NCBI GenBank assembly: GCA_019118645.1
Contig: DWYN01000079.1
Span: 1-51,894, forward strand
Origin: Candidatus Blautia excrementipullorum
GTDB taxonomy: Bacteria; Bacillota; Clostridia; Lachnospirales; Lachnospiraceae
DNA length: 51,894 nucleotides
Reading direction: 5' to 3'
Shown: positions 8,605 to 19,250 of the stretch, one piece after another
Numbering within the stretch: position 1 is the stretch's first letter
Layout of the letters: every line of letters starts with the position of its first letter
Translations under genes and position numbers: made by a program
The notes under the pieces: model-generated
Seen by the model: the letters and a program-made list of their open reading frames with translations, nothing else
What the model was told of the DNA's origin: nothing
Database searches by the model: none

Positions 8605-9321
8605 ATGTCCGAAGACAGAAACGAAGAAGAAAAGCAGCAGATAGAAAAAGAAGACCGCCAGAACGACCAGATTAAAGAGATGGGACAGGTGATTCTTGAT
8701 AAAAATTCCGGAAAACGAAGAGTGGAGCTGCTGACAATTATCGGAGAGGTGGAAGGACATGATTCCGCACCGGCACAGAGCAAGACGACAAAATACGAGC
8801 ACGTGCTTCCAAAACTGGCGCTGGTGGAGGATGACGAGGACATTGAAGGACTTCTGATTCTTCTGAATACCGTAGGCGGAGATGTGGAGGCCGGCCTTGC
8901 CATCGCGGAAATGATAGCTTCTCTCAGTATTCCCACAGTTTCCCTGGTGCTGGGAGGAGGCCACTCTATCGGGGTTCCCATGGCTGTATCGGCGGATTAC
9001 TCTTTCGTAGTTCCCAGCGCTACAATGGTTATCCATCCTGTTCGCAGCAGCGGTATGTTTATTGGGGTTGCCCAGACCTACCGGAATATGGAAAAGATAC
9101 AGGACCGCATCACCACTTTTATTTCCAGGCATTCTCATACAAGCCAGAAACGGCTGGAGGAGCTGATGCTGGATACCACTCAGCTTGTGAAGGATGTGGG
9201 TACTATGCTGGAAGGAGAAGAGGCAGTCCGGGAGGGCCTGATCGACGAGGTGGGCGGCATTAAAGAGGCACTGGCAAAATTATATGAACTGATTGAAGAA
9301 AGAAAAAGGAAAAATAAGTAA
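8605..9321 (+). CDS. tepA: TepA-like ClpP-fold serine protease
   Basis: A 238-residue member of the ClpP/crotonase superfamily most like Bacillus TepA (YmfB), once called translocation-enhancing protein. The first 30 residues are highly charged (EDRNEEEKQQIEKEDRQ) with no signal peptide. The catalytic Ser lies in GGGHSIG (Ser121) and the His in MVIHPV (His144), so the dyad is present. It shows the NTVGGDVEAGLAIAEMI segment of the family. In Bacillus tepA is beside spoIIIE. Here ftsK/spoIIIE lies 7 kb downstream, with a redox operon and uppP between. Its ribosome site is buried in a hairpin. Confidence 0.85.
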   Translation: MSEDRNEEEKQQIEKEDRQNDQIKEMGQVILDKNSGKRRVELLTIIGEVEGHDSAPAQSKTTKYEHVLPKLALVEDDEDIEGLLILLNTVGGDVEAGLAIAEMIASLSIPTVSLVLGGGHSIGVPMAVSADYSFVVPSATMVIHPVRSSGMFIGVAQTYRNMEKIQDRITTFISRHSHTSQKRLEELMLDTTQLVKDVGTMLEGEEAVREGLIDEVGGIKEALAKLYELIEERKRKNK

Positions 9322-9380
9322 AATAAGGAAAAGATAGTCGAATTTTTAACGATTTTCTATAAAATCCCCCACTTTTTTCT

Positions 9381-9408
9381 TTGACTGTCCCTCCATTTGT
9401 GGTATAAT
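9381..9408 (+). promoter_or_regulatory. Promoter of the NuoE/NuoF/GltD-fusion operon
   Basis: TTGACT (9381-9386) and TATAAT (9403-9408) with a 16-bp spacer. The expected start is near 9415, giving a leader of about 70 nt that contains the palindrome at 9437-9452. Confidence 0.75.
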
Positions 9409-9436
9409 CTTATAGAATGAGCGGTCATGTTCAAAA

Positions 9437-9452
9437 ATAACTGTTCAGTTAT
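9437..9452 (+). promoter_or_regulatory. Palindromic candidate operator in the redox-operon leader
   Basis: ATAACTGTTCAGTTAT has perfect 7-bp arms around TT. The hexamer TGTTCA/TGTTTA occurs three times across it (9428, 9442, 9452). It lies downstream of the promoter, where a bound repressor would block elongation, or it may fold as RNA. The arms do not match the Rex half-site. Confidence 0.45.
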
Positions 9453-9485
9453 GTTTAAAATTATTATACAGGAGGGACAAAACAT

Positions 9486-9998
9486 ATGAGCAATACGTGT
9501 GGATGTCAGAACAGCGGAAACGCAGAGTTCGCTGAATTGGCTCCGGTACTGGACAAATATGCGAAAGTGCCGGGAAGCCTGATTACCATTCTTCAGCAGA
9601 CCCAGGATATCTACGGGTACCTTTCTCTGGATGCCATTAACTACATCTCAGAAAGAACCGGAATCATGCCGGCAAAGATTTATGGTGTCGCAACATTTTA
9701 CGCCCAGTTCCGTTTGCAGCCGGTGGGCAAATACCTGATCATGCTCTGCAAGGGCACAGCCTGTCATGTAAATGGTTCTGATATGATTGAGGAAGCTGTC
9801 TGTGAGCATCTTGGAATTAAAGACGGAGAGACAACAGAGGACGGACTGTTTACACTAAACAACGTAGCCTGTCTTGGATGCTGCTCCCTGGCTCCCGTAA
9901 TGATGGTAAAATCAGCGGACGGAGAGGAAACATACGGAAACCTGACGAAATCTTCCGTTACGAAGATTCTTGACGATTATAAAGCAAAGAACGCATAG
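9486..9998 (+). CDS. NuoE-like thioredoxin-fold [2Fe-2S] subunit
   Basis: 170 residues of the complex-I 24-kDa/NuoE family, homologous to HydC/HndA of electron-bifurcating hydrogenases and to the small subunit of NAD-dependent formate dehydrogenases. The helical N-terminus (about 20-75) precedes a thioredoxin fold with four cluster ligands, Cys88, Cys93, Cys129 and Cys133 (CKGTAC and CLGCC). In such complexes this subunit sits on the NuoF protein beside the FMN. First gene of a tight three-gene operon, 11 bp before the NuoF-like gene, with AGGAGGG 8 nt before its ATG. The Cys-rich extreme N-terminus (CGCQ) is unusual but short. Function follows from the operon and is inferred. Confidence 0.88.
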   Translation: MSNTCGCQNSGNAEFAELAPVLDKYAKVPGSLITILQQTQDIYGYLSLDAINYISERTGIMPAKIYGVATFYAQFRLQPVGKYLIMLCKGTACHVNGSDMIEEAVCEHLGIKDGETTEDGLFTLNNVACLGCCSLAPVMMVKSADGEETYGNLTKSSVTKILDDYKAKNA

Positions 9999-10009
9999 GA
10001 GGCAGAGAT

Positions 10010-11764
10010 ATGAAGGTTGTTGTAGGACAGGGCAGCTGTGGTATTGCTACCGGAGCGAAAAAGACCTCTAATGAGTTTGAGCGCATCACAGCAGAAAAGA
10101 ATCTGACAAATGTTGTCATTGACAAAACAGGATGTATCGGAACCTGTTATCTGGAGCCTATCGTTGACGTATATAATGACGAAGGAAATCTGGAAGCAAG
10201 ATACGTCAAATGTACTACGGATAAAGTAGAAGAAATTGTAAACGAGCATCTGATCGGCGGGAAGCCTGTTGAAAAGTATATGATTCCGGAAGAGGATCAG
10301 GCGTTCCTTTCCCAGCAGCAGAGAATCGTTCTCCGTCACTGCGGACAGATCAATCCTGAGAGAATTGAAGAGTACATAGCAGTGGGCGGATATGAAGCCG
10401 CAAGAAAGGTTGTCACATCCATGACACCGGACGAGGTTATTGAGGAAATCAAAATTTCCGGACTCCGCGGACGCGGCGGCGCCGGATTTCCTACCTGGTT
10501 CAAATGGAATGCAATCAAATCCAATAAAGGCGCGCAGAAATACATGGTCTGCAATGCGGATGAAGGCGATCCCGGCGCATTTATGGACCGTTCCGTACTG
10601 GAGGGCGATCCTCATTCCGTACTGGAAGGTATGATCATCGGCGGATTCGCCGCAGGCGCTACTGAGGGAATTATTTACTGCCGTGCAGAGTATCCTCTGG
10701 CCATTGCCCGTCTGGAAATCGCCATGGAGCAGGCAAGAGAAAAAGGATTCCTTGGAAAGAACCTTTTTGGGACAGACTTTAATTTTGACATCCGCATCAA
10801 GGCAGGCGCAGGCGCTTTTGTCTGTGGTGAGGAAACTGCTCTTATCGCTTCCCTGGAGGGAGAGAGAGGCATGCCTCGTCTGAAACCTCCGTTCCCGGCA
10901 GCAAAAGGATACTGGAAGCTTCCAACCAATATCAATAACGTGGAAACTTATGCAAATGTGGCCTGGATCATTTCCAACGGCGGCGAGGCGTTTGCAGCAA
11001 GAGGATCTGAGAAGTCAAATGGATCCAAGGTATTCGCTCTGGCAGGAAAGATCAAGAAGGGCGGCCTTGTGGAAGTTCCTATGGGTATGACTCTCCGTCA
11101 GGTTATCTATGATATCGGCGGCGGCATCAAAAATGATAAAAAATTCAAGGCAGTGCAGATGGGCGGTCCTTCCGGCGGATGTATTCCGGCAGACCTGATC
11201 GACACACCGGTTACTTATGAAGATATTAACAAGACTGGCGCGATCGTGGGTTCCGGCGGTATGATCGTTATGGACGAAGACACCTGTATGGTAGACATGG
11301 CCCGCTTCTTCCTGGATTTCACCAAGAAGGAATCCTGCGGAAAGTGCAACTACTGCCGTATCGGTACCAAGAGAATGCTTGAGATTCTGGAGAGAATCAC
11401 AAGAGGAGAAGGAAAAGACGGAGACATTGAACTCCTGGAGGAACTGGCGGCTAAAATCAAGGACGGCGCTATGTGCGGTCTGGGACAGACAGCCCCCAAC
11501 CCGGTACTTACTACCCTCCGCTATTTCCGCAATGAATATGAAGATCATATTTACAACCATAAATGTACTGCTAAATCCTGTAAGGCTCTCATCCACTATG
11601 AGATTACAGAGGACTGCAAGGGCTGTACGGCCTGCGCAAGACACTGTCCGGTGGGCGCGATCAGCGGTGAAAAGAAAAAACAGCATAAGATTGATCCTGC
11701 GCTCTGCATTAAATGTGGCAAGTGTGAAGAATCCTGTAAATTTGGCGCAGTAAAGAGAGTTTAA
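10010..11764 (+). CDS. NuoF-like NADH-binding flavoprotein subunit with ferredoxin tail
   Basis: 584 residues in the order seen in HydB/HndC: an N-terminal thioredoxin-like segment (Cys10, Cys42, Cys46), the NuoF FMN/NADH domain (GLRGRGGAGFPT from 151, NADEGDPGAFMD near 181), a [4Fe-4S] site (Cys443, Cys446, Cys449, Cys489) and a C-terminal 2[4Fe-4S] ferredoxin (CKGCTACARHC from 536, then CIKCGKCEESC). This is the NAD(H) entry or exit module; in HydABC it is also the bifurcation site. It begins 11 nt after the NuoE-like stop, with AGGAGG upstream, and ends 14 bp before the large fusion. All expected ligands except one N-terminal Cys are present. Confidence 0.9.
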   Translation: MKVVVGQGSCGIATGAKKTSNEFERITAEKNLTNVVIDKTGCIGTCYLEPIVDVYNDEGNLEARYVKCTTDKVEEIVNEHLIGGKPVEKYMIPEEDQAFLSQQQRIVLRHCGQINPERIEEYIAVGGYEAARKVVTSMTPDEVIEEIKISGLRGRGGAGFPTWFKWNAIKSNKGAQKYMVCNADEGDPGAFMDRSVLEGDPHSVLEGMIIGGFAAGATEGIIYCRAEYPLAIARLEIAMEQAREKGFLGKNLFGTDFNFDIRIKAGAGAFVCGEETALIASLEGERGMPRLKPPFPAAKGYWKLPTNINNVETYANVAWIISNGGEAFAARGSEKSNGSKVFALAGKIKKGGLVEVPMGMTLRQVIYDIGGGIKNDKKFKAVQMGGPSGGCIPADLIDTPVTYEDINKTGAIVGSGGMIVMDEDTCMVDMARFFLDFTKKESCGKCNYCRIGTKRMLEILERITRGEGKDGDIELLEELAAKIKDGAMCGLGQTAPNPVLTTLRYFRNEYEDHIYNHKCTAKSCKALIHYEITEDCKGCTACARHCPVGAISGEKKKQHKIDPALCIKCGKCEESCKFGAVKRV

Positions 11765-11778
11765 TAGGAGGTGTAGAC

Positions 11779-14700
11779 GTGAATAAATACAGATTAAACA
11801 TCGACGGAAAAGAGGTCTACGGGCTTCCGGGCCAGACCATTCTTGAAGTCTGCAGAGAGAACGACATCTTTATTCCTACTCTCTGCTATGATGAAAGAAC
11901 AGAAATCTACGGCGCGTGCGGCCTGTGTGTGGTAGAGCAGGAGGGCAATCCGAAGCTTTGGAAAGCCTGTGCAACAGAGATTGCTCCAAACATGATCATA
12001 CATACCAATACGCCCCGTGTAATTGAATCCAGAAAGACAAATCTGGAGCTTCTTCTTTCCAACCATAAGGGTGACTGCCGCCCGCCGTGCATGCTGGCAT
12101 GTCCTGCAGGCACAGACTGCCAGGGCTATGTGGGCCTGATCGCAAACGGACAGTATGAGGAAGCAATTAAACTGATCAGAGAGAATATTCCGCTGCCGGG
12201 TTCCATCGGCCGTGTCTGCCCGCATCCCTGCGAGACAGCCTGCCGCCGCGGAATGGTGGATGAGCCCATTGCAATTGCGAACCTGAAGAGATTTGCCGCA
12301 GATACTGATGAATTCGGAGAGGATCCGTTTGTTCCGGAGTGCGAGCCGGATACAGGAAAGAACGTTGCCATCATCGGCGGCGGTCCTTACGGTATCTCCA
12401 TGGCATATTTCCTCCGTCAGCTCGGACACGATGTGACGATTTACGAGGCAATGCCGAAGCTCGGCGGTATGCTCCGCTACGGTATTCCGGAGTACCGTCT
12501 TCCGAAAGAAGTGCTGGACGAGGAAATCGCTGTTCTTGAAAAAATGGGCGTGACTATGATCACCAATACCAAGATTGGCGAGGATATTTCCTTTGAGACA
12601 ATCCGCAGAGATTTTGACGCTGTCTGCGTTGGTATCGGCGCATGGGTTTCCACCGGCGTTCGCTGCAAGGGCGAGGATGCCAAGGGCGTGATCGGCGGTA
12701 TTGATTTCCTGCGCAAGGTAGTCCGCAACGAGCCCATTGACCTTGGAAAGAAGGTTGCCATTGTCGGCGGCGGAAACACCGCTATGGATGCCTGCCGTAC
12801 AGCAGTGCGCCTGGGAGCCGACAAAGTTTACAATATTTACAGAAGAACAAAAGATGAGATGCCTGCAGATATGCTTGAGATTGAAGAGGCAGAGGAGGAA
12901 GGCGTTATCTTTCTGAATCTGACGAATCCTCTTGAGATCATTTCCGATGAGGACGGCCACTGCCGCCAGATGGTTCTCCAGGTAATGGAACTCGGCGAGC
13001 CGGATGCATCCGGACGGCGTGCACCGATTCCCGTAGAAGGAAAAACAGAAACCATCGATGTGGATACTGTGATCCTTGCCATCGGACAGAGAGTCAACGC
13101 AGAAGGCATGGAAGGCGTAGAGCTTACCAGAAAAGGCGGCCTTGTATATGACAAGGATACCTATATGACAGCGATTCCGGGCGTATTTGCCGGCGGCGAC
13201 TGCGGTAATGACAAGATCTCCATCGCAGTGGAATCCATCGGAGACGCCAAGAAGAGCTATCTGATCGTAGACGCTTATCTCCGCGGCGAAGAGATCAAAT
13301 ACGAGCCGAATTACTATGTAACCAAGAAGGACGTGACTCCGGCTACCTTTGAAGACCGCGAGAGAATGTGCCGTCCGACAATGGAACAGCTTAACGCAGA
13401 AGAAAGAAAAGACAACTTTACAGAAGTGGTATTCGGATACGATGAAGAGCAGGCAGTTGAGGAAGCTCACCGCTGTCTGGAATGCGGATGTAAAGATTAC
13501 TTCGAGTGCAAACTGATTGCATATTCCAATATGTATCATGTAGATCCGGATCGCTTTGCGGGAGACATCAATGAAGTGGAATTCCACGATGAGCATCCGT
13601 TTATCCTGAGAGATCCCAACAAGTGTATTCTCTGCGGACTCTGCGTTCGTGCCTGCGATGAGGTTATGGGCGTAGGCGCTCTTGGCCTGGTAAAACGTGG
13701 ATTTGACACAGTAGTTATGCCGGCTCTTGAGCAGCCGCTTGCTGAGACCGGATGTATCTCCTGCGGTCAGTGCGTAAGTGTCTGCCCGACAGGCGCTCTT
13801 CAGGAAAACCTGACCCTGGAGAAATCTGTTCCGCTTGACACAGAAGTAACCGATACTACCTGCGCTTACTGTTCTGTGGGATGTTCCATGCATCTGGAAA
13901 CATACGGAGATATGCTTGTGAAGGCTGTTCCTGACAGAGAAGGAGCTGTGAACAAGGGACTTCTCTGCGGCAGAGGAAAATTCGGCTTTGACTGTTCCGT
14001 AATGGAAGGAAAACTTCTGGAGCCTATGGCAAGAAAAGAGGGACAGCTTACAGAGGTTGACTATCACGAGGCATTTATGCTTACCGCTAAGAAGGCGGAG
14101 GCTCTTGCTGCAAAATACGGCAAGGACGCAGTGGCAGTGGCAATCTCTGACAGATATACAAACGAAGAAGCTTATGTGATCAAGAAATTTGCAGACTCCA
14201 TCGGAGCCAAGACGCTTTGCTTCAACAACAGAGAGAACGGACTGGAAAAAGTTCTGGGAGTAAACGCTTCTCCGAACACCATCGATGAACTGCTTTCTGC
14301 TGAGGTGATTCTCTGTGCAGGATTTGTCGCAAAGGAGAATCAGGTAATTCGTCTGAAGCTGAAAGAAGCTGCAAAGAACGGCGCGAAAGTAGTCTTGATC
14401 AATCCGGAGGGATATGCGCAGGATCATATGAGCTTTGTATACCAGACAGTAGAGACAGACAATACTCTCGGATTCCTGAAGGGTGTTGCCAAAGCACTTG
14501 TGGATATGGGCAAGGGCGCAGGAACAGAAGGTTATGAGGAGTTTAAGGCTTCTGTAGAAGGCGCTTCCGTATCTGATGAGGCAAAAGCTGTAGCTGAGCT
14601 GTATGCAAATGCAAAGAAGGCTATGATCGTATTCCAGCAGAATGTGGTGAGCACAGAGACTGCGGTTCTTCTGGGCGATATTGCAGTCGTTTCCGGCCAT

Positions 14701-15279
14701 ATCGGAAAGGCCCGCGATGGTATCCTGATGCTGAAGGCTAAAAATAACAGCCAGGGTCTTATTGATCTGGGCGTTACAGCAGGCGCAGAGGCTATGGAAG
14801 GCGTGAAGGCTCTTCTGGTATTCGGAGAGGATCCGGACGCAGATCTTCTTAAGAATCTGGTATTCCTGATGGTTTGCGATACCCATATGACAGAGACCGC
14901 CAAACTCGCGGACGTAGTCATTCCGGGAACAGGATTTGCATCTACCTATGGTACCTTTACCAATACAGAGCGCAGGCTTCAGACAGTAGAGCAGGCAATT
15001 GAAGAAGATGTGGTATTCTCCAATTGGGAAGTTGCTGCTGAACTTGCTCATGTATATGAAGTGGAAATGCCTTTCGATGATGTAGAAGACATTTCTGATG
15101 AGATGAATGATAAGCTTCCTGTTTACCGCTATGCGGAAATGGGAGAGATCTCCGGAGGAGTTCTGGAATGCAATGGAGCGAAGCTTGCAGCTGTTTCTGA
15201 CGCTGCATTTATTGCGCCGCTTCACTGCACAGATCATCTGATGAACATAATTGACGAGAGACTTCCGCAGGCAAAATAG
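11779..15279 (+). CDS. Ferredoxin/GltD/molybdopterin-fold fusion, probable Stn-type transhydrogenase subunit
   Basis: 1166 residues. Order: plant-type [2Fe-2S] (Cys36, 47, 50, 64); GltD/NfnB-like part with N-terminal cysteines (100, 104, 108, 114, 147, 151, 155), an FAD loop (GGGPYG near 200) and an NADPH loop (GGGNTAMDA at 330-338); 2[4Fe-4S] ferredoxin (Cys616, 619, 622, 626 and 659, 662, 665, 669); then a molybdopterin-oxidoreductase fold with CAYCSVGC at 695-702 and Cys730. Where formate dehydrogenases have Cys/Sec-His, the text reads LCFNNRENG (from 813), so no Mo catalysis is expected, as in NuoG. No hydrogenase H-cluster motif is present. With the two preceding genes it suggests a soluble NAD/NADP/ferredoxin transhydrogenase like the Sporomusa-type Nfn (Stn). 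GTG start, AGGAGG about 9 nt upstream. Confidence 0.85.
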   Translation: MNKYRLNIDGKEVYGLPGQTILEVCRENDIFIPTLCYDERTEIYGACGLCVVEQEGNPKLWKACATEIAPNMIIHTNTPRVIESRKTNLELLLSNHKGDCRPPCMLACPAGTDCQGYVGLIANGQYEEAIKLIRENIPLPGSIGRVCPHPCETACRRGMVDEPIAIANLKRFAADTDEFGEDPFVPECEPDTGKNVAIIGGGPYGISMAYFLRQLGHDVTIYEAMPKLGGMLRYGIPEYRLPKEVLDEEIAVLEKMGVTMITNTKIGEDISFETIRRDFDAVCVGIGAWVSTGVRCKGEDAKGVIGGIDFLRKVVRNEPIDLGKKVAIVGGGNTAMDACRTAVRLGADKVYNIYRRTKDEMPADMLEIEEAEEEGVIFLNLTNPLEIISDEDGHCRQMVLQVMELGEPDASGRRAPIPVEGKTETIDVDTVILAIGQRVNAEGMEGVELTRKGGLVYDKDTYMTAIPGVFAGGDCGNDKISIAVESIGDAKKSYLIVDAYLRGEEIKYEPNYYVTKKDVTPATFEDRERMCRPTMEQLNAEERKDNFTEVVFGYDEEQAVEEAHRCLECGCKDYFECKLIAYSNMYHVDPDRFAGDINEVEFHDEHPFILRDPNKCILCGLCVRACDEVMGVGALGLVKRGFDTVVMPALEQPLAETGCISCGQCVSVCPTGALQENLTLEKSVPLDTEVTDTTCAYCSVGCSMHLETYGDMLVKAVPDREGAVNKGLLCGRGKFGFDCSVMEGKLLEPMARKEGQLTEVDYHEAFMLTAKKAEALAAKYGKDAVAVAISDRYTNEEAYVIKKFADSIGAKTLCFNNRENGLEKVLGVNASPNTIDELLSAEVILCAGFVAKENQVIRLKLKEAAKNGAKVVLINPEGYAQDHMSFVYQTVETDNTLGFLKGVAKALVDMGKGAGTEGYEEFKASVEGASVSDEAKAVAELYANAKKAMIVFQQNVVSTETAVLLGDIAVVSGHIGKARDGILMLKAKNNSQGLIDLGVTAGAEAMEGVKALLVFGEDPDADLLKNLVFLMVCDTHMTETAKLADVVIPGTGFASTYGTFTNTERRLQTVEQAIEEDVVFSNWEVAAELAHVYEVEMPFDDVEDISDEMNDKLPVYRYAEMGEISGGVLECNGAKLAAVSDAAFIAPLHCTDHLMNIIDERLPQAK

Positions 15280-15346
15280 GAGAATCATTTGTCTGAAAAA
15301 AGAAAATAAAAAAGAAAGACCTGTATAAAAGAGGTCGTCTCAAAGG

Positions 15347-15399
15347 AACCGGCTTTCGCAAGCAGAAGAAAGACTCTGTCTGCGGAAAGCCGGTTTTTT
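15347..15399 (+). terminator. Terminator of the redox operon
   Basis: AACCGGCTTTC (15347-15357) pairs perfectly with GAAAGCCGGTT (15385-15395), and T15394-15399 follows. The gap from 15280 to 15636 otherwise holds the uppP promoter and a leader hairpin; no gene was seen in it. Confidence 0.88.
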
Positions 15400-15497
15400 G
15401 CGGGACTGAAGCTTTATTCCACACCGCTGCAGCTGCGGACCGTTTTGCCGGAATAGATCAAAAAACGCTCACATGTTCGATTTTTGGAAGGGATTGC

Positions 15498-15526
15498 TTG
15501 TAACTTGGCTCTAAATATGATATACT
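15498..15526 (+). promoter_or_regulatory. uppP promoter
   Basis: TTGTAA (15498-15503) and TATACT (15521-15526) are spaced by 17 bp, which gives a leader of about 100 nt before uppP. Confidence 0.6.
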
Positions 15527-15562
15527 GATTAAGATTCAGGGAAAAATCCTGGGGAACAGTTG

Positions 15563-15595
15563 CGGTACAGCAAAGAATCGGCACTGCTCTGTACC
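15563..15595 (+). other. Hairpin in the uppP leader
   Basis: CGGTACAG (15563-15570) and CTGTACCG (15588-15595) form a perfect 8-bp stem with a 17-nt loop inside the predicted leader. I do not recognise a riboswitch class. Confidence 0.4.
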
Positions 15596-15636
15596 GGCAT
15601 CTGAGTTTGAAAATATACAGGGAAAAGGGATTAACC

Positions 15637-16518
15637 ATGTTTGTTTTGTATGTGATTTTGTTGGCGATTGTCCAGGGAATTCTGGAATTTCTTCCGGTGA
15701 GCAGCTTCGGACATCTGTGTGTAATTCAGGAGTTCCTGGGAATGGAACGGGGGCCGGGAGTGCTGTTGGAAGTGATGCTTCATTTTGGCACCCTTGCGGC
15801 CATTATTCTGACTTTCTGGAAAGACCTTGTGCATCTATTTGTAGAGACGCTGGAGATGGCTTTGGACCTGGTGGGAAATTTATCTCTCTATATTCATAAC
15901 CGGAGAACCGGAGATAAGCTTCACTACAGCAAAATAGTGAGCAGTACATACCGAAAGTTTTCTGTACTTCTCCTGCTGTCGATGATCCCGACGATTGCCA
16001 TTGGCTTTACCGCGCGGCGGCTTGTCCCGCTGGCGGCGGCTTCCCGTCTGCTGCCTGGAGCGGGAATTCTGATTACGGGCATTATTCTTCTGGTGGTGGA
16101 TCTCAGCAGGCTGGGAGGCAAAAAGGCTGCCAGAGATGCAAATTATGGAAATGCCATGTGGATTGGGATCTGCCAGGGTCTGTCTGTTTTTCCGGGGCTG
16201 TCCAGAAGCGGGCTGACAATTTCGGCGGGCCTTCTGGGAGGCTTCAGCCGTACTTTTGCAGTGAAATATTCTTATATTCTTTCCATTCCGGCAGTTACAG
16301 GAGCTCTGATAATGGAACTTGGAGAATTTGCATCTCCGGAGATGACAGTGGGCATGGGATTTGCCTATGTTTTCGGAATGATTGTTTCGGGAGCAGTGGG
16401 ATGCTTTGTGATCCGTTTTCTCCTGAGAATCGTCCAGAAGGGAAAATTCCGCCATTTTGCATATTATTGTTTTTTTGCCGGATTTGTGTCGCTGGCGGTA
16501 AGCTTTCTTGTTTTGTGA
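15637..16518 (+). CDS. uppP: Undecaprenyl-diphosphatase
   Basis: Integral membrane enzyme that dephosphorylates undecaprenyl diphosphate to recycle the lipid carrier for cell-wall synthesis. The family motifs are LPVSSFGHL near residue 20 (usually LPVSSSGH, so Ser to Phe here) and PGLSRSGLTIS near 190, which carry the catalytic Glu, His and Arg residues. Several hydrophobic helices fill the remaining 293 residues. I moved the start to the ATG at 15637, which has AAAGGGA 9 nt upstream and begins directly at the first membrane helix. A longer frame from TTG at 15607 has no ribosome site. It has its own promoter and precedes ftsK by 59 bp. Confidence 0.92.
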   Translation: MFVLYVILLAIVQGILEFLPVSSFGHLCVIQEFLGMERGPGVLLEVMLHFGTLAAIILTFWKDLVHLFVETLEMALDLVGNLSLYIHNRRTGDKLHYSKIVSSTYRKFSVLLLLSMIPTIAIGFTARRLVPLAAASRLLPGAGILITGIILLVVDLSRLGGKKAARDANYGNAMWIGICQGLSVFPGLSRSGLTISAGLLGGFSRTFAVKYSYILSIPAVTGALIMELGEFASPEMTVGMGFAYVFGMIVSGAVGCFVIRFLLRIVQKGKFRHFAYYCFFAGFVSLAVSFLVL

Positions 16519-16577
16519 AAAGACGACAGCAATATATAATCAGATGGCAGTAAAAGTAGTAGGAGGGACGCCTGAAT

Positions 16578-19250
16578 ATGGCAGCATCAAAAAATCAGAG
16601 AAGCAAAAAGGGAACCACAAGAAGTACATCGAAAAATACATCATCAAAAAGAAATACATCTTCGAAAAAAAAGAGCGTTTCCAGTGGATTCCAGACAGAA
16701 ATTATTCTGCTGATTATTCTGGCGGCATCCATGATTCTGGTGATCAGCAATCTCGGAATGGGAGGAGTAGTGGGAGACACCATCAGCCAGGTATCCTTTG
16801 GAGTTATCGGCCTTCTGGCGTATATTTTTCCTGTGCTGCTCTTTCTTGGAACAGTATTTCTGGTGTCAAATAAAAAAAATCCTCTGGCATACAAAAAGCT
16901 TCTTGCAGCTATCGTTTTTTTCGCATTTCTGTGCGGACTTGTTCAGCTGCTGACAGAGGGCTATATGAAGAGCACAACGCTGTTGGATTACTATACGCTC
17001 TGCTCTGATTACAGAACGGGAGGAGGAGTGGTGGGAGGAGCGGTCTGCATTTCCTCCACTTCTGCTTTCGGGGTGGCCGGAGGATACATTATCATTATTC
17101 TGGTACTGCTGATTACCCTGATTTTAATTACACAGCGCTCCTTTTTTGGATTTATCTTCAAAATCTGGGATGGGATTCTGGGCGCTGCCCGGAATGGACA
17201 TGACCGCTATATGGAGGGACAGCCGGAGCGCAAATTGAAAAAGGAACTCAGGCAGAAAGAACGGCGGCAGAAAAGGGAAGCGCGGCAGGCACAGCGTATA
17301 CAGGAACTGGAGGCTGCTCTGGCGGAGGAAAAGAAGGAAGACAGCCAGAGTTCTGATGAAACAGAAACGCCTAAACATGGTTTTCTGGAAGGGACAAAGC
17401 TTACCCGCCCAAAGCAGAAACCAGACGCAGCTACAGGGAAAAACCCGAGAAAAGAAGACGGGGTTTCAGTGGAGACAAGCGAGAACAGTCAGGGACAGCT
17501 GGAATTCCAGATCTACAGATCTGATCCCGCGGTGAATCTTGAGGATGGTCCTGACCTGTCGGAGGACATTCTTTTTGGAGATCCTGCGCCGGAGGAGATG
17601 GAAACTATTCCGGCAGCGGAGGAAAGAAATCCGGACACCGCCTTTTCCGGGATGAGTGCCCAGCCGCCGGCAGATGAAAAAATTCCGCCGAACCGGAAAA
17701 AAATCCCCCGGTCTTCTCAGGGGGAAATAGAAAACGGAATTCAGAACATTCAGAGAGAAATTGGGAATCAGGAGGAAAAACCGCAGAAACAATATCATTT
17801 TCCGCCCATTAAGCTCCTGAAAAGAGGAAATGTTCAGTCCAAGGGAGACTCAGACGCCCATCTTAGAAAGACAGCGCAGAAGCTGCAGGAAACACTGCAC
17901 AATTTCGGCGTAAATGTAACGGTGACAAATGTAAGCTGCGGCCCGACTGTAACCCGATATGAACTTCAGCCGGAAATGGGAGTTAAGGTCAGCCGTATTG
18001 TTGGACTGGCGGACGACATCAAACTGAACCTGGCGACTCCGGATATCCGTATCGAGGCGCCGATCCCGGGAAAGGCTGCTGTGGGGATTGAGGTTCCCAA
18101 TAAGGAAAATCACCCTGTAATGCTGAGGGAACTGATTCAGTCCCAGGAATTTCAGAGTGCGAAATCCAAGCTTTCCTTTGCGGTTGGAAAAGATATAGGA
18201 GGAAAACCGGTGGTGGCGGATATTGCCAAGATGCCTCATCTTTTGATTGCAGGGGCTACAGGATCCGGTAAATCTGTATGCATTAATACTCTGATTGTAA
18301 GTATTCTTTATAAAGCCTCGCCTGAGGATGTGAAACTGATCATGATTGACCCCAAAGTAGTGGAGCTGAGCGTATACAATGGGATTCCGCATCTGTTCAT
18401 TCCTGTGGTCACAGATCCGAAGAAGGCGGCGGGGGCGCTGAATTGGGCGGTTTCTGAAATGATGAGCCGCTATAATACTTTTGCGGAGTATAATGTGCGC
18501 AACCTGGAGGAGTATAATAAAAAAATTGAAGGTATGAGCGTTCCGGAAGGAGAGACTGCTCCGGAGCGTATTCCTCAGATTGTGATTATTGTAGATGAGC
18601 TTGCGGACCTTATGATGGTGGCGCCCGGCGAAGTGGAGGATGCAATCTGCCGTCTGGCCCAGCTGGCCAGAGCAGCGGGGATTCATTTGATTATTGCTAC
18701 ACAGAGACCTTCTGTAAATGTCATTACCGGTCTGATCAAGGCAAACATGCCATCGCGGATTGCGTTTTCGGTCTCTTCCGGTGTGGATTCCCGAACGATT
18801 TTGGATATGAACGGGGCGGAGAAGCTTCTTGGAAAAGGGGATATGCTTTTCTATCCTCAGGGATACCAGAAGCCGGCCAGACTGCAGGGCGCCTTTGTGT
18901 CGGATGAGGAGGTCAGCAGCATTGTGAACTTCCTGGCGGACAAAAACCCTGGTACGCAGTACAATGCGCAGATTGAACAGCAGGTAAATACGGCTGCTTC
19001 CATTGGAGGAAATTCCGGAAAAGAGGAAAGAGACGTCTACTTTGAAGAAGCAGGGAAATTTATCATTGATAAAGATAAGGCTTCTATTGGAATGCTTCAG
19101 CGTATGTTTAAGATTGGCTTTAACAGAGCGGCCCGTATTATGGATCAGCTCTGCGATGCAGGAGTGGTAGGGCCGGAGGAGGGCACAAAGCCCAGGAAGG
19201 TTCTGATGTCAATGGAGGAATTCCAGAATTATATCGAAGAAACTTTGTAG
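16578..19250 (+). CDS. ftsK: DNA translocase FtsK/SpoIIIE
   Basis: 890 residues. A Lys/Ser-rich N-terminus (1-36) precedes about four membrane helices (38-190), then a charged, low-complexity linker (about 205-420), then the motor: alpha/beta RecA-like domains with Walker A GATGSGKS (559-566) and Walker [11 protein letters not shown] near 672, and a C-terminal gamma winged helix (about 815-885, [17 protein letters not shown]) that reads orienting DNA motifs. It pumps chromosomal DNA through the division or sporulation septum. With sporulation genes nearby it is likely the SpoIIIE-type protein. AGGAGGG lies 9 nt before the ATG. Confidence 0.94.

Follow-up and report, generated by a model that had tools for sequence, protein, structure and literature searches.

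A probable Sporomusa-type StnABC transhydrogenase operon in Blautia at a chromosomal site also used by nfnAB

Introduction

In anaerobes, Stn enzymes keep the NADH, NADPH and ferredoxin pools in balance. The electron-bifurcating transhydrogenase Stn of Sporomusa ovata (8OH5/8OH9; PMC7483475, PMC10482914) is encoded by three genes for subunits of 178, 584 and 1172 aa, the largest of which, StnC, is composed of four parts. Within the genus Blautia, a protein of Blautia schinkii was listed as Stn by Kremp 2020 (PMC7483475), and this StnC is 45% identical to that of S. ovata. Table 1 of the same study names a potential StnC in Caldicellulosiruptor saccharolyticus, Csac_0621, of 1178 aa (PMC7483475). 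The solved complex of that organism (9BOV/9BP5) is termed the Bfu family member NfnABC in PMC12954380. Since its chain 9bov_A is also 1178 aa, equal in length to Csac_0621, NfnABC and Stn are most likely the same enzyme and differ in name and in mechanistic framing.

Two other systems are close to Stn. NfnAB performs the same overall reaction with two subunits, and NfnB resembles StnC residues ~101-504; in contrast to Stn, it has neither NuoE/NuoF-like subunits nor the NuoG part. Lys170 is strictly conserved in StnC, whereas NfnB carries Glu at that position (Kumar 2023, PMC10482914). In HydABC, HydC and HydB are homologous to StnA and StnB, and the H-cluster-bearing HydA is replaced by StnC in Stn.

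Here, we compare these systems with an operon in the window, i.e., the whole stretch of 51,894 nucleotides that was analysed. A first-pass annotation had described it as a three-gene redox complex, either a Stn-type transhydrogenase or a new variant.

Operon and subunits

The open reading frames and Pfam domains agree with the three-gene operon of the annotation, in which NuoE-like and NuoF-like subunits accompany a 1166-residue fusion (Table 1). The annotated span, 9381-15399, also takes in flanking DNA outside the three genes. Spacers of 11 and 14 bases separate stnA from stnB and stnB from stnC. The order stnA-stnB-stnC is kept in 72 of the 80 related loci; the remaining 8 have less than 1.9 kb upstream of stnC and are cut by the contig start.

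Table 1. Genes, site boundaries and proposed StnC iron-sulfur ligands in the window
Feature	Position	Strand	Description	Conserved in related loci
clpP-like gene	8605-9321	+	Pfam CLP_protease; synteny; upstream boundary of site	
stnA	9486-9998	+	170 aa, ATG start; HydC/NuoE-like	
stnB	10010-11764	+	584 aa, ATG start; HydB/NuoF-like	
stnC	11779-15279	+	1166 aa, GTG start; four-part fusion	
uppP/bacA-like gene	15607-16518	+	Pfam BacA; synteny; downstream boundary of site	
ftsK-like gene	16578-19250	+	named from translation; synteny anchor; second downstream neighbour	
StnC ligands, N-terminal part	C36/47/50/64, H96, C100/104/108, C147/151/155			80/80 each
StnC ligands, later part	C566/569/571/577, C616/619/622/626, C659/662/665/669, C695/698/702/730			80/80 each

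StnA carries one thioredoxin-like [2Fe-2S] domain (Pfam); its proposed ligands C88, C93, C129 and C133 are all conserved in every locus with an identified stnA (72/72). The Pfam domains of StnB are Complex1_51K, SLBB, NADH_4Fe-4S and a C-terminal ferredoxin. An N-terminal thioredoxin-like domain with C10/C42/C46 is followed by the GRGGAGF and NADEGDPG motifs of the FMN/NAD site, a NuoF-type [4Fe-4S] and the C-terminal 2[4Fe-4S] ferredoxin. Glu185 and Asp187, which correspond to E184/D186 of the Stn FMN/NAD loop, are kept in 74/74 aligned sequences, with 4 gaps, and the eight C-terminal cysteines in 78/78.

StnC matches the Pfam families Fer2_4, Fer4_20, Pyr_redox_2, Fer4_Nqo3/Fer4_7, Molybdop_Fe4S4 and Molybdopterin, giving a [2Fe-2S] domain, a GltD/NfnB-like domain for FAD and NADPH, a NuoG-like FeS domain and an inactive FdhF-like domain. 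The 26 cysteines and H96 proposed as its FeS ligands, an assignment made from motifs and homology, are joined by C114, K170 and R240 in being present in every one of the 80 loci. Lys170, at cluster C7, and Cys114 both served as markers of Stn. After a one-residue shift in the alignment, Arg240 corresponds to the FAD-site residue R239, which is required for activity in S. ovata StnC (Kumar 2023, PMC10482914).

Assignment to Stn

The three subunits match the solved S. ovata subunits with E values of 0 (StnC), 1.9e-272 (StnB) and 1.5e-53 (StnA), which excludes a chance match. For all three, the best two solved matches are the complexes 8OH5 and 9BOV. StnC aligns with its counterparts in S. ovata (8OH5) and in 9BOV/9BP5 over nearly the whole length, and all three subunits match C. 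saccharolyticus NfnABC near full length. We also note, and count against the assignment, that the top-scoring solved chain for StnC and StnA is that of 9BOV and not of S. ovata. StnC scores 330 bits with the NfnB family model TIGR01316, whose cut-off is 471.75. A search of the window's genome (89% complete), as the first-pass annotation had suggested, returned no TIGR01316 match over the cut-off; hydrogenases are encoded elsewhere in that genome.

The sequence comparisons thus point to StnABC, a Sporomusa-type electron-bifurcating transhydrogenase, with a probability of roughly 0.96. The Stn-type reading, which joins NADH, NADPH and ferredoxin, holds on all the sequence tests made; the new-variant option is not supported. 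Every defining feature tested is as in the solved Stn, including the FeS ligands, K170, the FAD-site Arg and the inactive FdhF-like domain, and among these features sequence divergence is the sole difference from S. ovata. The operon is an already described system, because its B. schinkii orthologue (StnC T506DRAFT_02634, locus L018), 89% identical to the window StnC, already figures as Stn in the founding paper. In genome G014, which probably holds the B. schinkii locus, clpP and stnA are ~10 kb apart, with an open frame of 2952 residues in the interval.

FdhF-like domain

An NADPH-linked formate dehydrogenase or hydrogenase, with StnC catalytic for formate or H2, is the reading that the molybdopterin-oxidoreductase fold and its [4Fe-4S] would call to mind; the positions previously given for the cysteines of this cluster (695, 698, 702 and 730) are correct. 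LCFNNRENG had been noted as lacking Cys/Sec-His, and no Cys-His pair occurs in the catalytic region of 81/81 sequences (the window and 80 relatives). That observation is refined in one respect: Cys814 of the motif falls in the catalytic column, where 7qv7 and 6TG9 have the Cys of their Cys-His pair, but the column holds Ser or Thr in 31/80 relatives. The C-terminal pterin-binding domain, for which we take PF01568 to be the marker, is absent from the Pfam matches of StnC. A molybdenum formate dehydrogenase was rejected on the lack of both the catalytic Cys/Sec-His and this domain.

The claim that no H-cluster motif exists is borne out by the 19 Pfam families listed for StnC, which do not include the Fe-hydrogenase catalytic family. 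NCBIfam [FeFe]-hydrogenase models score far under their cut-offs, with the best stretches in the FeS parts (195/765 bits at 564-682; 119/900 bits at 6-102). HydABC hydrogenase was likewise rejected, the third subunit being devoid of an H-cluster domain. The S. ovata domain is reported to be catalytically inactive (Kumar 2023, PMC10482914) and is required for tetramer assembly, which for S. ovata largely answers the question of what the dead Mo-fold domain does. StnC thus appears from its sequence to be without catalytic residues in this domain, and formate or H2 chemistry here is improbable in the extreme.

Proposed mechanism

From the homology with the S. ovata complex of known structure, we infer the reversible reaction (protons omitted) 2 NADPH + NAD+ + oxidised ferredoxin <-> 2 NADP+ + NADH + reduced ferredoxin. 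NADPH would donate a hydride to the FAD of the GltD-like region in StnC, and the StnC FeS clusters would relay electrons to FMN in StnB. StnA and StnB would form the bifurcating module, like HydC and HydB in HydABC: one branch would pass electrons to NAD+ at FMN, and the other, through the StnA [2Fe-2S], would reach the ferredoxin domain at the C terminus of StnB. For the FdhF-like end of StnC, a structural role is proposed. Gene order, domains, ligands, conservation and genomic distribution are direct observations; activity, in vivo direction and cofactors of the window complex we infer.

Architecture alone does not fix the substrate, because the archaeal relative Nso was originally reported to be a sulfur reductase. 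In Thermococcus litoralis, Nso shows this fusion too, with 40.6% identity to StnC, S. ovata Stn also performs uncoupled NADPH:NAD+ transfer, and coupling cannot be proved from sequence alone. A complex that keeps this architecture but has shifted in function, either a Nso-like NADPH:sulfur oxidoreductase or a non-bifurcating NADPH:NAD transhydrogenase, nevertheless seems very unlikely. The StnA [2Fe-2S], the loss of which abolishes coupling in S. ovata, is present, its ligands kept in 72/72. NsoC is predicted to lack the C2 cysteines (Kumar, PMC10482914), whereas the window StnC keeps all dicluster and Mo-type FeS cysteines. Site and distribution, moreover, fit a replacement of NfnAB.

A site shared by stnABC and nfnAB

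Exclusivity of Stn and Nfn was already known more broadly. In the window's genus, 64 genomes were compared: 25 have StnC, 33 have NfnB, 6 have neither and none has both (Fisher p 1.8e-12, genome relatedness ignored); the best 34 genomes each have exactly one of the two. Either operon directly follows a clpP-like gene and usually precedes uppP-ftsK. Where clpP shares a contig with the operon, StnC follows it in 19 of 20 cases, the Stn genome G052 departing from the pattern, and NfnB in 16 of 16; a clpP match is lacking in 14 Nfn genomes. Pfam confirmed the NfnA and NfnB domains in locus L139. A prior report of stnABC and nfnAB at the same site was not found in the literature. It seems that one locus accommodates either of the two operons, and stnABC presumably fills the nfnAB role in the genus; the six genomes with neither complex, and G052, count against this. 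The shared site therefore supports the operon performing the NfnAB reaction.

Nfn may be the older system in this neighbourhood. In a family sample of 298 genomes, at least 194 have a clpP match. Of stretches from 40 of these, hand-picked chiefly for their strong similarity and the length of their contigs, 23 contain nfnAB, 1 contains stnABC and 16 contain neither operon; in the 23, nfnAB lies past ftsK, outside the clpP-ftsK interval. On a 50-taxon ClpP+YebC protein tree the distribution takes 6 changes, but a tree restricted to the 41 taxa having both genes requires only 3. Collapsing weak branches of the 50-taxon tree gives 6 to 7 changes, which, with hard polytomies, are not minima. Both are short markers with linkage to the site, so recombination could mislead. 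Two Nfn genomes, G023 and G045, fall among 15 Stn genomes within one clade (support 0.98), and several other mixed nodes have support <0.5. In nine genomes, G008 among them, NfnB shares 97-100% identity with the G008 protein. Recent transfer of nfnAB was first suspected, but strong constraint could explain this identity, since DNA identities are 88-98% for nfnB and 86-99% for nfnA against 71-96% for clpP.

It is reasonably probable that the Blautia clpP-uppP/ftsK interval is a swap site that holds nfnAB or stnABC, never both, and has switched several times, the machines being interchangeable in vivo.

Implications

StnABC is the likely link of the NADH, ferredoxin and NADPH pools in this gut acetogen-like bacterium, and its in-place exclusivity with nfnAB adds a genomic argument, besides the resemblance to S. 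ovata, for Stn doing the NfnAB reaction in cells. If the swap site is real, two differently built bifurcation machines, the FAD-centred Nfn and the FMN/HydBC-type Stn, would be interchangeable in vivo, and the physiological difference between them would be testable in closely related gut acetogens. Matched pairs of close relatives would allow the two designs to be compared for what they cost, which way they run and how sensitive they are to redox state.

Identity of the operon

ORF analysis places three adjoining genes on the + strand, which fill positions 9486-15279 of the window; the last encodes a fusion of 1166 aa with a GTG start codon. The first-pass annotation described NuoE-like and NuoF-like subunits and a fusion of [2Fe-2S] ferredoxin, GltD/NfnB-like flavoprotein, 2[4Fe-4S] ferredoxin and molybdopterin-oxidoreductase modules, and this domain content was confirmed by Pfam. 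In the PDB sequence search, the best match of the fusion is 9bov_A (1123 bits, residues 3-1099), followed by 8oh5_C (1055 bits, residues 1-1107), and the rest score far lower. The NuoF-like protein matches 8oh5_B best (908 bits) and then 9bov_B, and the NuoE-like protein matches 9bov_C and then 8oh5_A. 8OH5 is the S. ovata StnABC structure, the entry of Kumar 2023. With the 8OH5 and 9BOV chains far ahead for the fusion, the proposed Stn-type transhydrogenase holds, and the operon is the already known StnABC.

Stn was defined in Kremp 2020 (PMC7483475) and its structure was solved in Kumar 2023 (PMC10482914). The latter gives S. ovata StnC 1172 residues, equal to 8oh5_C, places bifurcation at the FMN of StnAB, describes the StnC FAD as non-bifurcating, and shows that assembly requires the FdhF-like domain and its clusters. 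The chain sequences of 9BP5 and 9BOV are identical, and 9BP5 is named NfnABC of Caldicellulosiruptor saccharolyticus, a member of the Bfu family, in PMC12954380. The names Stn and NfnABC (9BOV/9BP5) most probably refer to a single enzyme type, because a 1178-aa C. saccharolyticus protein given as potential StnC in Table 1 of Kremp 2020 (PMC7483475) matches the length of 9bov_A, 1178 residues.

Conservation among related loci

Relatives were the best 80 of 128 related loci from genome contigs, among which the closest named loci to the window operon are from Blautia, including Blautia schinkii DSM 10518 (L018). The order stnA-stnB-stnC is kept in 72/80; in the remaining eight, where at most 1.9 kb of contig lies upstream of stnC, stnA, stnB or both went undetected. 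The proposed ligands, K170, C114 and R240 of StnC are invariant (80/80), as are the proposed ligands of StnA (72/72) and the eight C-terminal cysteines of StnB (78/78). StnB C446 is replaced by Ser in one of 77 aligned rows, in an alignment with gaps at N-terminal positions in up to 5 of 78 rows. The formate dehydrogenase Cys-His pair, noted as missing at first pass, is found in none of 81 sequences in the corresponding StnC region; yet Cys814 occupies the alignment column of the catalytic Cys.

Distribution of Stn and Nfn in the genus

The window's own genome (G000; 184 contigs, 89% complete, 4% contamination) has an acetogen-like gene set, with matches over cut-off for RnfC (3), AcsB/CdhC (2), Fe-hydrogenase (3) and FTHFS (1). 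NfnAB, Rnf and HydABC had been named earlier as genes to look for: RnfC, Fe-hydrogenase and HydB-like pieces are present, and TIGR01316, the NfnB profile, gave no match over cut-off in the 184 contigs, so that no NfnB is recognisable, an absence that is weak on its own because the genome is incomplete. The HydB-like pieces sit on two contigs, and we infer that they fit together as one split gene. The RnfC matches lie on three contigs (C174, C139 and C33) and may stem from several Rnf operons or from the contamination. The two AcsB/CdhC-type genes, on C98 and C86, have frames of 716 and 722 residues.

Protein searches of 64 genomes of the genus found StnC, among the matches listed, in 25 (23 full length, one contig-cut in G031 and one split in G052). 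With TIGR01316 at E ≤ 1e-90, NfnB was identified in 33 (32 over cut-off and a contig-cut piece in G048). Among the matches listed for StnC, no genome has both and six have neither (G012, G017, G018, G020, G024 and G049). Of these, G020 (93% complete) and G049 (91%), each with 6% contamination, may make NADPH by a third route or have an assembly gap. The 34 genomes with completeness of 90% or more and contamination of 5% or less divide into 12 with Stn and 22 with NfnB, none with both or neither. Several of the 64 genomes, judged by contigs of equal length (for example 279123, 182676, 40571 and 22761 bases), are apparently the same records as loci among the 80, and the two sets are therefore not independent.

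Kremp 2020 (PMC7483475) reports Stn and Nfn as almost mutually exclusive across 48 acetogen genomes, with Clostridium carboxidivorans and C. magnum having both. It lists Stn in B. schinkii and B. hydrogenotrophica, Nfn in B. coccoides and B. producta, and, within Sporomusa, Stn in two species and Nfn in three; alternation within a genus was thus already visible in print.

A shared chromosomal site

The site was marked by a match to the window's clpP-like gene at E ≤ 1e-50, present in 44/64 genomes. All 25 Stn genomes have it, 20 on the StnC contig. In 19 of these, StnC follows clpP on the same strand, 2.43-2.50 kb downstream in 16, 3.3 kb in G006 and 12.5 kb in G014 and G037; G052, with the split StnC, departs from the pattern. 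In the other five, clpP and StnC are on separate contigs; downstream of the gene, the clpP contig runs for no more than 0.7 kb in four and for 2.5 kb in G007. Among the 33 Nfn genomes, clpP was matched in 19, 16 of them on the listed NfnB contig, and in 16/16 NfnB is on the clpP strand, 1.03-1.24 kb downstream. In G029, G035 and G046 clpP is on another contig than the listed NfnB; in G035 a second, contig-cut NfnB piece shares the contig with clpP. The match was not found in 14/33 Nfn genomes, and the site was judged by clpP only in the others.

Among 15 Nfn genomes whose regions were retrieved, nfnA adjoins nfnB in 15/15, clpP is directly upstream in 14/15 and uppP and ftsK are downstream in 13/15. 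The exceptions are G019, which has no clpP match and carries nfnAB followed by uppP and ftsK, and G062 and G001, where uppP/ftsK were not found. In the Stn regions compared (G009, G034, G002, G014 and the window), stnC is followed by uppP and ftsK in 5/5 and clpP is directly upstream in 4/5.

An open frame of 2952 residues separates clpP from stnA in two genomes. In the L245 frame, Pfam identifies F5/8 type C, malectin and FIVAR domains, together with weak matches of fn3-like type.

Coordinates of the shared site and of the large open frame
Feature	Location	Remark
Shared stnABC/nfnAB site	window 8605-19250; loci L162-L181	after clpP-like gene, usually before uppP-ftsK
2952-residue frame, G014	L245 3222-12077, - strand	
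2952-residue frame, G037	L246 3297-12152, - strand	

No description of a shared stn/nfn site was found in the titles and abstract starts of the papers that searches of an open-licence library listed, and the available parts of PMC7483475, PMC10482914, PMC12773636, PMC12954380, PMC11253131 and PMC9124964 do not mention it. The exclusivity across acetogens has been known since 2020; the shared site is an addition of the present analysis. Given the clpP/uppP/ftsK synteny in Stn and Nfn regions, one site is occupied by two operons of different build that serve the same reaction.
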